Assembly: GCF_027924565.1 (NCBI RefSeq)
Contig: NZ_AP027041.1
Coordinates: 3,286,001-3,350,000 of the forward strand
Length of the DNA stretch: 64,000 bases
Source of the DNA: Lysobacter auxotrophicus
GTDB taxonomy: Bacteria > Pseudomonadota > Gammaproteobacteria > Xanthomonadales > Xanthomonadaceae
Direction of reading: 5' to 3'
Of the stretch, positions 24,445 through 55,820 are shown piece after piece. The notes under the pieces were generated by a model. That model ran no database searches. It saw only the letters and a list, made by a program, of their open reading frames with translations, and was not told where the DNA came from. Each line of letters begins with the position of its first letter. The stretch's first letter is position 1. The position numbers and the translations under genes were made by a program.

Positions 24445-24484
24445 AAAAAAAAACTCTCCCCCCGCCTGGGCTGCGGGGAGAGAG
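24445..24484 (-). terminator. Intrinsic terminator of H1-like gene
   Basis: On the reverse strand CTCTCCCCGC pairs with GCGGGG...GAGAG and is followed by nine T residues (A run at 24445-24453). Confidence 0.9.
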
Positions 24485-24509: not shown

Positions 24510-24956
24510 TTAGATCATCGGCGCCGGGGTAGCCGGCATCGCCGTCACAGCCGCCTTCTTGGCGGTCTTCTTGCGGCTCGACTTCTTGGCAGCCTTCTTC
24601 GGAGCCGCCTTCTTGGTCGCCTTCTTGGCGGTCTTCTTCGCGCCAGCCTTCTTGGCCGTCTTGCGGGCGCCGGTCTTCTTGGCGGCCTTCTTCGCGGTCT
24701 TCTTGGCGGCGGTCTTGCGGGCACCGGTCTTCTTGGTGGCCTTCTTGGCGGCGGTCTTGCGGGTCGCCTTCTTCGCGGTCTTGCGCGCGCCGGTCTTCTT
24801 GGCGGCCTTCTTCGCGGTCTTCTTGGCGGCGGTCTTGCGGGCGCCGGTCTTCTTGGCGGCCTTCTTCACGGTCTTCTTCGCGCCAGCCTTCTTGGCGACC
24901 TTCTTCGTCGCCTTCTTGGCGGCGGTCTTTTTCTTCGCAGCTTTCTTCATGGCCAT
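24510..24956 (-). CDS. Histone H1-like lysine/alanine-rich DNA-binding protein
   Basis: 148 residues, almost entirely K, A, T, R and G in KKTGARKTAAKKTAKKAAKK-type repeats, closely resembling the eukaryotic H1 tail and bacterial AlgP/HctA-like proteins. It is expected to bind and compact DNA without sequence specificity. The ATG at 24956 follows GAGGAGCC at good spacing; an ATG two codons later is possible. The C-terminal end (AVTAMPATPAPMI) is not basic. Copy number of the repeat usually varies between strains in this family. It has a strong terminator and an unusually long upstream region with a possible small RNA at 25111-25299. Confidence 0.92.
   Translation of the reverse strand: MAMKKAAKKKTAAKKATKKVAKKAGAKKTVKKAAKKTGARKTAAKKTAKKAAKKTGARKTAKKATRKTAAKKATKKTGARKTAAKKTAKKAAKKTGARKTAKKAGAKKTAKKATKKAAPKKAAKKSSRKKTAKKAAVTAMPATPAPMI
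24661..24840 (-). repeat. Direct repeat inside H1-like gene (120-bp period)
   Basis: The 60-bp blocks 24661-24720 and 24781-24840 differ at only one base in the plus-strand text. Unequal recombination between them would change the protein by 40 codons in frame. Confidence 0.9.
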
Positions 24957-24977
24957 GGTATGGCTCCTCGTCAGTGG

Positions 24978-24995: not shown

Positions 24996-25110
24996 TGGTC
25001 GTGCAGGTCTATCGCCCAGTAGAACCTAAGCCGCGGGAGTCGGACCCGCGAGCAGCCGCCGACGCGCGAACGCGCCGGTACGGATTTGGTGCCGTCTGCC
25101 CATGCGGGCA

Positions 25111-25145
25111 AACAAAAACCCGGCGCGCGGAATGCGGACCGGGTT
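25111..25145 (-). terminator. Intrinsic terminator inside the H1-like leader
   Basis: Reverse strand: AACCCGG (25145-25139) pairs with CCGGGTT (25123-25117) around a 15-nt loop, followed by TTTGTTT. It sits between the strong promoter at 25306-25334 and the H1-like start codon. Confidence 0.75.
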
Positions 25146-25299
25146 GGATGGAGTGCCTGGCCTGCGTGTGCACGGTTCGCGTTTTCGCGGAGGAAACGAA
25201 CCCTGCGTCCACCGTTTCGACAGCCCGGTCGGAGGTTCGTTTTGTGCCGCGAGTTGTCGCGCTGTCTGTACTCACTCTCTTCCGCAGGAGACGTCTGCT
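25111..25299 (-). ncRNA. Candidate ~190-nt small RNA or attenuated leader
   Basis: A strong promoter (25306-25334) and an intrinsic terminator (25111-25145) bracket about 190 nt on the reverse strand with no start codon/ORF of note. Internal stems are visible: GACAGC/GCUGUC, ACGAACC/GGUUCGU, GCGACAACUCGC and CGCGAAAACGCG. CUCC or CCUCC, complementary to ribosome-binding sites, occurs four times, two in likely single-stranded loops. The length is like 6S RNA, but the 5' and 3' ends do not pair as 6S requires. It could be a free sRNA or a leader that terminates before the H1-like gene. Confidence 0.55.
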
Positions 25300-25305
25300 G
25301 GGCGA

Positions 25306-25334
25306 AACCTAATCACGCTTTTTCGGACTGTCAA
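25306..25334 (-). promoter_or_regulatory. Strong sigma-70 promoter upstream of H1-like gene
   Basis: Reverse strand TTGACA (25334-25329), 17-bp spacer, TAGGTT (25311-25306). A run of nine A residues lies just upstream of the -35 (25350-25358 region), resembling an UP element. Predicted transcription start is near 25299. Confidence 0.7.
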
Positions 25335-25902
25335 CAACTTCGCTCATTTTTTTTTCAGGCAGGTCGGGATGGCGTCATCGCCGCCGCCGTTCCAAGCGAC
25401 GCGTCGAACGACGACGACGAAGTTCACCGATCGGCCGACGCGACGACACGCAATTCGCAAACTGCTTTTTTTAAGGGGTTTGCGAAAACGCATCGGCGTG
25501 CGGACAGGTTCGACGGTGCGATCGCATGCATGCGTCGCGATGCCGACGACGGGTCGTCGAGGGTGCGCGAAGGCACCCGAAAAAAGTTTTCGCCGACGCC
25601 CTCGTTTCGCGTCGCACAAACCCGATTTGCGCGAAAGTGCGCGAACCCGGACGACACTGAAACGACGGTCGGACACGTTCGCGAACAACGCGTCGGGGAT
25701 GTCGGCGACACCTTCGCGATGCATGCGATGCACCGCGATGCGCGCGGCCGACGCGTCCATCGCCGCATGCCGAAGGTCACCGACGGTGCACCCGGAACGT
25801 GTCGTGCATCGCGTTGCGAAGACATCGCGACACCGTCGTCGGACGCTCGCGACGACCGCGCTCACCGGACCGTCACTTCCCGCAACGCGCATCGCGTGCC
25901 GC
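25335..25902. other. Gene-free 0.57-kb stretch of unusual composition
   Basis: No convincing gene. Several open frames of 130-300 codons overlap on both strands, but they are arginine/threonine/histidine-rich, without domains or ribosome-binding sites. The DNA is rich in GCGATGC/GCATCGC and CGACGAC words (for example three GCGATGC within 25717-25742). It contains AAAAAAGTTTTCG at 25580-25592 and TTTTTTTAAGGGGTTTGCG near 25467. It lies between the gcvH terminator and the promoter at 25306-25334. Confidence 0.55.
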
Positions 25903-25935
25903 AAAAACAAGACCGGCCGCACTGGGCGGCCGGTC
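25903..25935 (-). terminator. Intrinsic terminator of gcvH
   Basis: Reverse strand GACCGGCCGC-loop-GCGGCCGGTC (perfect 10-bp stem), then TTGTTTTTG. Confidence 0.92.
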
Positions 25936-54212: not shown

Positions 54213-54220
54213 GTCGTGTT

Positions 54221-54297
54221 CCCACCGAGGGGCGCTGCAAGTCCGGAATTTCCCGGAATCAGGCTCGGCGGGACGCATACCGAATCAACGGCGCCCG
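54221..54297 (+). ncRNA. S-adenosylhomocysteine (SAH) riboswitch
   Basis: Conserved core in order: CCGAGGGGCGCTGCAAG (54225-54241), CAGGCTCGG (54260-54268) and AACGGCGCCC (54288-54297). CCGAG pairs with CTCGG, and GGCGC with GCGCC as the pseudoknot. The class binds SAH and raises expression of ahcY, the gene immediately downstream. The ATG is about 78 nt beyond the core. Confidence 0.92.
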
Positions 54298-54374
54298 GTT
54301 TGGCAGGCCATCACGGCCCGCCCCAACCCACCCTCTCCCGCGAGGGAGAACGGGACACAAACCGGAGCAATCTG

Positions 54375-55820
<1,446 letters not shown>

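Follow-up and report, generated by a model that had tools for sequence, protein, structure and literature searches.

The RNA that begins upstream of the histone H1-like gene of Lysobacter auxotrophicus raises the question of whether a promoter and an intrinsic terminator bracket a regulator in its own right or the first part of the H1-like message. We analyzed the locus within a window of 64,000 nucleotides from a complete 4.16-Mb genome, where a first-pass annotation had proposed either a trans-acting sRNA or an attenuated leader of the H1-like mRNA. The explanation that we favor, with a probability of about 0.6, is that the stretch serves as a 5′ leader for the H1-like gene and would act by translation-coupled attenuation similar to that of pyrBI, by means of a frame that probably once belonged to metJ.

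Table 1. Features of the H1-like locus, with coordinates counted from the first letter of the window.
Feature	Position	Strand	Basis and remarks
UP-like A tract	25347–25355	minus	Sequence; A/T-rich position in 111 leaders
−35 element TTGACA	25329–25334	minus	Pattern in 204 loci; also in 17/17 metJ-H1 loci of family f12
−10 element TAGGTT	25306–25311	minus	Recurs with TTGACA; 17-nt spacer
Predicted transcription start	near 25299–25303	minus	Placed from sequence
About 190 nt of leader RNA, ending with the intrinsic terminator	25109–25303	minus	Family conservation; alignment A1
Leader ORF, 88 codons	25009–25275	minus	GUG start 25273–25275, UAG stop 25009–25011; spans the terminator
Intrinsic terminator within the leader ORF	25109–25145	minus	Hairpin 25117–25145, U-rich tail 25109–25116; compensatory changes, conserved position
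Hairpin 3′ of the terminator	25059–25078	minus	Consensus fold of the post-terminator region; predicted
Second hairpin 3′ of the terminator	25032–25050	minus	Consensus fold; predicted
Conserved ACTGGGC	25014–25020	minus	Matches MetJ codons (TGQ) in family f12
Conserved CCACTGACGAGGAG with H1-like ribosome-binding site GAGGAG	24964–24977	minus	Matches MetJ codons (TDEE) in family f12
H1-like Lys/Ala-rich protein, 148 aa	24510–24956	minus	ATG at 24956; HC2 and hist_H1_lk_Burk matches below cut-off
Terminator of the H1-like gene	24445–24482	minus	Hairpin 24454–24482, T run 24445–24453; sequence

The A tract, the TTGACA-17-TAGGTT promoter and the terminator described by the first-pass annotation are all present on the minus strand, and all three stand above chance. 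The promoter pattern recurs in 204 loci, which include some genomes twice and correspond to 156 distinct leaders, or 112 after similar ones were removed; A/T content reaches 89% at positions −50 to −46 compared to about 20–30% upstream (111 leaders); and a terminator-like hairpin above the score threshold was found in 90 of 112 leaders vs 9 of 560 shuffled sequences. Since a simple consensus scan flagged neither the leader promoter nor the leader terminator, the case for both rests on conservation. The H1-like ATG had been placed about 150 nt past the terminator and does lie there. The H1-like protein matched HC2 weakly, below the cut-off, and hist_H1_lk_Burk likewise stayed below its cut-off. 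On the same strand, an unusually long gap of about 560 nt (25356–25911) separates the terminator-like hairpin of a gcvH-like gene (25911–25935) from the leader promoter.

The leader sequence was found in all 12 genomes of the genus and in 155 of the 197 genomes of the family (E ≤ 1e-4), the other 42 having no match at that cut-off. Across the order, 111 of 397 genomes carried the promoter pattern, and every one of them belongs to the window's family. Among the matches listed, at least 117 stretches in named genomes carry the exact promoter pattern, and the genera represented are Lysobacter, Luteimonas, Xanthomonas, Stenotrophomonas, Pseudoxanthomonas, Thermomonas, Arenimonas and Vulcaniibacterium. 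L143, L146 and L209 come from records assigned by their labels to Bacillus subtilis, Rhizobium and Burkholderiaceae; these records carry the leader pattern of the window's family and are therefore probably mislabelled or contaminated.

The linkage to the H1-like gene is strict. A Lys/Ala-rich ORF followed 81 of 81 distinct leaders in a first set, and an H1-like ATG lay downstream in 191 of the 204 pattern loci, the sequence of the remaining 13 ending within 313 nt, such that the H1-like gene adjoins the leader at every locus with enough sequence (191 testable loci). Distances to the H1 ATG ranged from 282 to 456 nt (80 leaders). Sequence conservation is strongest at the 5′ end of the leader and continues past the terminator up to the H1 ATG, and inspection of the consensus by eye revealed no conserved second promoter between these two points. 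The proposal of an attenuated leader of the H1-like mRNA thus gains support from this linkage, from the lack of a conserved second promoter and from the covarying terminator described below.

The same comparison leaves the trans-acting sRNA, an independent RNA of ~190 nt whose CUCC motifs would block ribosome-binding sites and which would merely lie upstream of the H1-like gene, quite improbable. A conserved promoter and terminator and the strong conservation of the 5′ end would suit such an RNA, and C-rich sRNAs exist in the window's family, for example sX13 (PMC3771888, in the portion available). The repeated CUCC/CCUCC motifs on which the proposal was built are real in the window RNA, with 4 CUCC compared to a mean of 0.72 in shuffled sequences (0.3% of which reach 4), but they are not conserved across the family, where the mean is 1.38 per leader (112 leaders). 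The one conserved CCUCC sits in a stem with GGUGGA, so that CUCC does not provide a conserved unpaired seed, and a pattern for spaced CUCC motifs gave no match. Furthermore, none of the 191 testable loci had the RNA without an adjoining H1-like gene, conservation does not stop at the terminator and runs on to the ATG, no helix other than the terminator covaries, and the frame-specific lack of stops reported below, which makes the RNA appear translated, has no place in an sRNA.

The publications that we found do not describe the leader, and none joins sRNA, Xanthomonas and histone H1-like; a published start site or sRNA entry may exist in supplements or in Xanthomonas dRNA-seq data. In the portions available, PMC8578834 lists "Histone H1" genes of Xanthomonas, among which the Xanthomonas orthologue may be included, and PMC7694677 reports many 5′-UTR-derived sRNAs in Xanthomonas campestris. 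The available portion of PMC5559785 lists 30 new Xanthomonas proteins by their neighbouring genes, and the leader locus could not be placed among them.

We assessed RNA structure using an alignment of 63 sequences (A1), picked from the 82 of 112 leaders in which a stricter score called a hairpin at +140 to +230; a few of the 90 hairpins above the first threshold sit farther downstream than the main position. In A1, two-sided changes were seen at 8 of the 11 pairs of the terminator helix, with 94% of cells paired, while helices 1 and 2, upstream of the terminator, showed none, compensatory changes being limited to the terminator helix. A tree-based covariation scan of all column pairs gave a single pair with E < 1, located in the terminator stem, and the other pairs, including three more in that stem, had E ≥ 3. 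Folding of the window RNA was not better than that of shuffled sequences (z = −0.94; 32/200), and the whole leader had z = −1.35 (7/100 shuffles). The several stems attributed to this transcript are therefore not borne out, the terminator excepted. Two candidates were rejected by eye: a closing pair of 5′ GCCCAG with 3′ ACTGGGC, since changes in the 5′ copy are unmatched in the 3′ copy, and a T-arm-like hairpin 3′ of the terminator, the loop of which is not kept in Xanthomonas-type leaders.

Besides covariance, the first-pass annotation had suggested a search against Rfam, including 6S RNA. At the gathering threshold, Rfam 15 contained no family matching the leader. With a relaxed threshold, snoRNA sR38 and a betaproteobacterial toxic sRNA appeared at 15–16 bits, far under their cut-offs and at chance level. 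6S RNA (RF00013) had no match in the region, the 6S RNA of this genome lying elsewhere (92.7 bits). Above the gathering threshold, the sole match in the whole window was a plus-strand SAH riboswitch (RF01057, 53.3 bits) at 54221–54303, which precedes an adenosylhomocysteinase-like ORF (54216–55820) and has a metK-like ORF directly upstream (gene names by inspection), an arrangement that fits a genome without MetJ.

These data also bear on a classical cis-acting leader, in which RNA structure would regulate through ligand or protein binding or an antiterminator and translation would play no part. A conserved intrinsic terminator inside a long leader and the UCCGCC/GGUGGA helix, paired in 95% of cells in A1, are what such a leader could display. 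Helices 1 and 2 are, however, without two-sided changes, and upstream segments complementary to the terminator arms did not exceed shuffled sequences in duplex energy (mean z = −0.10 with the 5′ arm and 0.26 with the 3′ arm; z below −2 in 5 and 4 of the 82 leaders, respectively). Because it also leaves the open frame unexplained, we regard regulation by RNA structure without translation as very improbable.

The leader was further described as non-coding, and this part of the claim is doubtful, even though its bracketing by promoter and terminator stands. A GUG at about +25, within GAGUGAG, is nearly invariant, and the frame that it opens extends through the terminator to just 5′ of the H1-like ribosome site, with a length of about 75–130 codons across the family. 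Chosen by position alone, the GUG was present in 109 of 112 leaders and in 63 of 63 sequences of A1. Its frame was open in 106 of the 109 non-redundant leaders, compared to 49 and 72 for the other two frames; when near relatives were included (152 distinct GUG leaders), the values were 147 vs 67 and 104. The exceptions are the 3 leaders in which the GUG is missing and the 3 in which the frame is not fully open. In L186 and L160, the GUG is altered (GUA, GUC), which makes these two leaders natural tests of the need for this start. Three more leaders, retrieved by the H1 ribosome-site pattern and not by the promoter pattern, also have an open GUG frame, although they add little because their other frames are nearly open too.

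Stops were depleted along the whole frame. Between codons 3 and 37, counts by frame were 2/34/16 (shuffled mean 44), and from codon 37 to a limit 60 nt short of the H1 ATG end they were 2/45/31 (shuffled mean 51; 105 leaders in both cases). The bias persisted when the set was thinned to 60 leaders (open 59 vs 27 and 38) and to 26 strongly divergent ones (open 25 vs 15 and 15; permutation P = 2.3e-4); with 14 leaders, those most divergent from one another, the second part alone did not show a significant bias (P = 0.059). A control stretch upstream of the promoter had no frame bias (86/72/66; 108 loci). When leaders were separated by the phase of the H1 ATG, stops by frame were [0,7,7], [2,21,13] and [0,19,12] (n = 26, 35 and 48), demonstrating that the depletion tracks the GUG frame whatever phase the H1 ATG has, and it cannot therefore stem from a fixed frame of the conserved 3′ elements. 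The first in-frame stop lay 16–61 nt 5′ of the H1 ATG in 106 of 109 leaders, and a stop before the terminator end occurred in 1 of the 80 leaders having both a called terminator and the GUG. The openness of the GUG frame relative to the other frames, in every H1 phase, suggests that the leader is translated, as far as comparison of sequences can indicate. Upstream of the GUG, Shine-Dalgarno pairing was no better than in random leader pieces (median −2.4 vs −2.2 kcal/mol). The frame was also open in all 29 GUG leaders without a called terminator, which implies that lifting the leader terminator cannot be the only role of the ORF; these cases would be consistent with protection from Rho or with a role in bringing ribosomes to the H1-like start.

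An open frame with an invariant GUG might equally encode a functional small protein, produced in an operon with the H1-like gene. In its favor, the N/S ratio is 0.76 in the GUG frame compared to 0.99 and 1.14 in the other two, a mild excess of synonymous change, and the first 35 codons have a GC3 of 0.67 vs 0.50 and 0.61 at codon positions 1 and 2. The constraint on amino acids is nevertheless weak: beyond codon ~35 the ORF sequences are poorly alike and their phase relative to shared elements varies by species, the second part of the ORF lacks a codon-position signature (GC 0.70/0.69/0.69), and the 3 leader ORF products tested had no match in Pfam. We consider this small protein unlikely.

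A possible origin of the frame emerged from the H1 ribosome-site pattern, found in 75 of 299 genomes of the order. Families f9 and f3 had a single match each, and the matches included 2 genomes of family f12, where a MetJ protein carries the H1-like stretch as an in-frame tail. All 17 of the f12 MetJ loci read carry this MetJ-H1 fusion gene, with a TTGACA-17-TA promoter. In f12, the codons ACT GGG CAA CCA CTG CCA ACT GAY GAG GAG are almost fixed, third positions included, while the preceding codons vary, and in the window's family ACTGGGC and CACTGACGAGGAG are the conserved elements before the H1 ATG. The two arrangements thus share the TTGACA-17-TA promoter, a similar distance to the start codon, ACTGGGC and CTGAYGAGGAG before the H1-like part, and a Lys/Ala-rich tail. 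They differ in that f12 makes a single in-frame protein with the full MetJ domain, whereas the window's family has no MetJ domain, has a terminator, and keeps the H1-like gene separate. MetJ (PF01340) was detected in 52 of 200 genomes of the order, all 52 in three other families; a search of 119 genomes from the window's family gave no match above the cut-off. The reconstruction in the available portion of PMC4239095 likewise assigns no MetJ regulon to 4 Xanthomonadales genomes and names a different regulator, SamR. A motif search at the MetJ loci left 13 loci of family f8 unmatched, and their open frames of 95–143 aa may point to the lack of a long tail. Judging from these sequences, we infer that the leader stands where metJ stood in a metJ-H1 fusion and that its GUG lies close to the earlier start codon.

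Two further observations concern these loci. In f12 (L251–L267), a stretch conserved at the nucleotide level precedes an internal ATG having its own ribosome site, and H1 may be made there both as the MetJ tail and alone. In the window, AGACGTCT at 25289–25296, just after the predicted start site, equals the MET-box consensus quoted in the available portion of PMC4239095, and most of the family has AGACGTTT at this place; AGACGTCT may have arisen by chance or be left over from autoregulation of metJ.

With such a descent, the open frame could itself be a passive relic of the lost metJ under no present selection, as the absence of MetJ from the window's family and the resemblance of promoter and 3′ end to the metJ-H1 loci would allow. 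No MetJ match above the cut-off remains, however, and indels have moved the phase into all three classes, yet stops avoid only the GUG frame, so that a passive relic is, to us, the least probable account of all.

Translation-coupled attenuation would accommodate these results as follows. A strong conserved promoter would start the transcript, in which the GUG-started leader ORF overlaps the intrinsic terminator and stops a short way 5′ of the H1-like ribosome-binding site. Ribosomes moving on the leader ORF close behind RNA polymerase would block termination at the hairpin, and possibly termination by Rho, before reaching the H1-like start; without leader translation, transcription would stop and an RNA of ~190 nt would be released. 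Translation into or near a terminator is described to suppress termination, and pyrBI works in this manner (PMC4824070 and PMC5021804, in the portions available). An RNA of about 190 nt, ended at the terminator, may still build up. The locus would derive from a metJ-H1 fusion gene whose MetJ meaning was lost in the window's family, with the frame kept open. The weak amino-acid constraint argues against a sensor of a specific amino acid and for one of general translation. More tentatively, and with less than even odds, the former metJ region could serve as a "blank" leader ORF in which amino acids drift and selection keeps stops out, such that H1-like output tracks the translation of the cell, as a general translation sensor, rather than one for a single amino acid or nucleotide, linked to chromosome packing.

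If the leader does act by translation-coupled attenuation, a nucleoid-protein gene conserved across the family, including Xanthomonas, Stenotrophomonas, Lysobacter and Luteimonas, is governed by the passage of ribosomes through a leader frame, providing a simple tie between DNA packing and translation. The locus would also be one of the rare cases in which a coding region can be seen to have kept its reading frame after its protein meaning was lost, and it would warn that "sRNAs" bracketed by promoter and terminator may be leaders that are translated.

Among known RNAs, sX13 of Xanthomonas resembles the leader in being a conserved, family-restricted RNA with pyrimidine-rich motifs, and differs in its length of 115 nt, its position at polA, and its three stems with C-rich loops (PMC3771888, in the portion available, which gives nothing on the location of sX6). 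6S RNA is similar in length to the leader RNA and is encoded at another place in this genome. Compared to the pyrBI attenuator of Escherichia coli, the window leader concerns a different gene and taxon, starts with GUG, has a Shine-Dalgarno sequence not above random and no known nucleotide-sensitive pause, and its ORF seems to descend from a metJ domain. The pyrL leader ORF of pyrBI reads across an intrinsic terminator and stops shortly before the gene that follows, as the leader ORF does here, and is the shorter of the two. Two features of a pyrBI-type attenuator were found in the family, namely an intrinsic, covarying terminator in the leader and a leader ORF that covers it. We do not claim membership of that class; the H1-like leader would work like pyrBI, where a ribosome close to the polymerase stops the hairpin from forming (PMC4824070 and PMC5021804, in the portions available), with translation of the window leader suggested by the frame-specific lack of stops.
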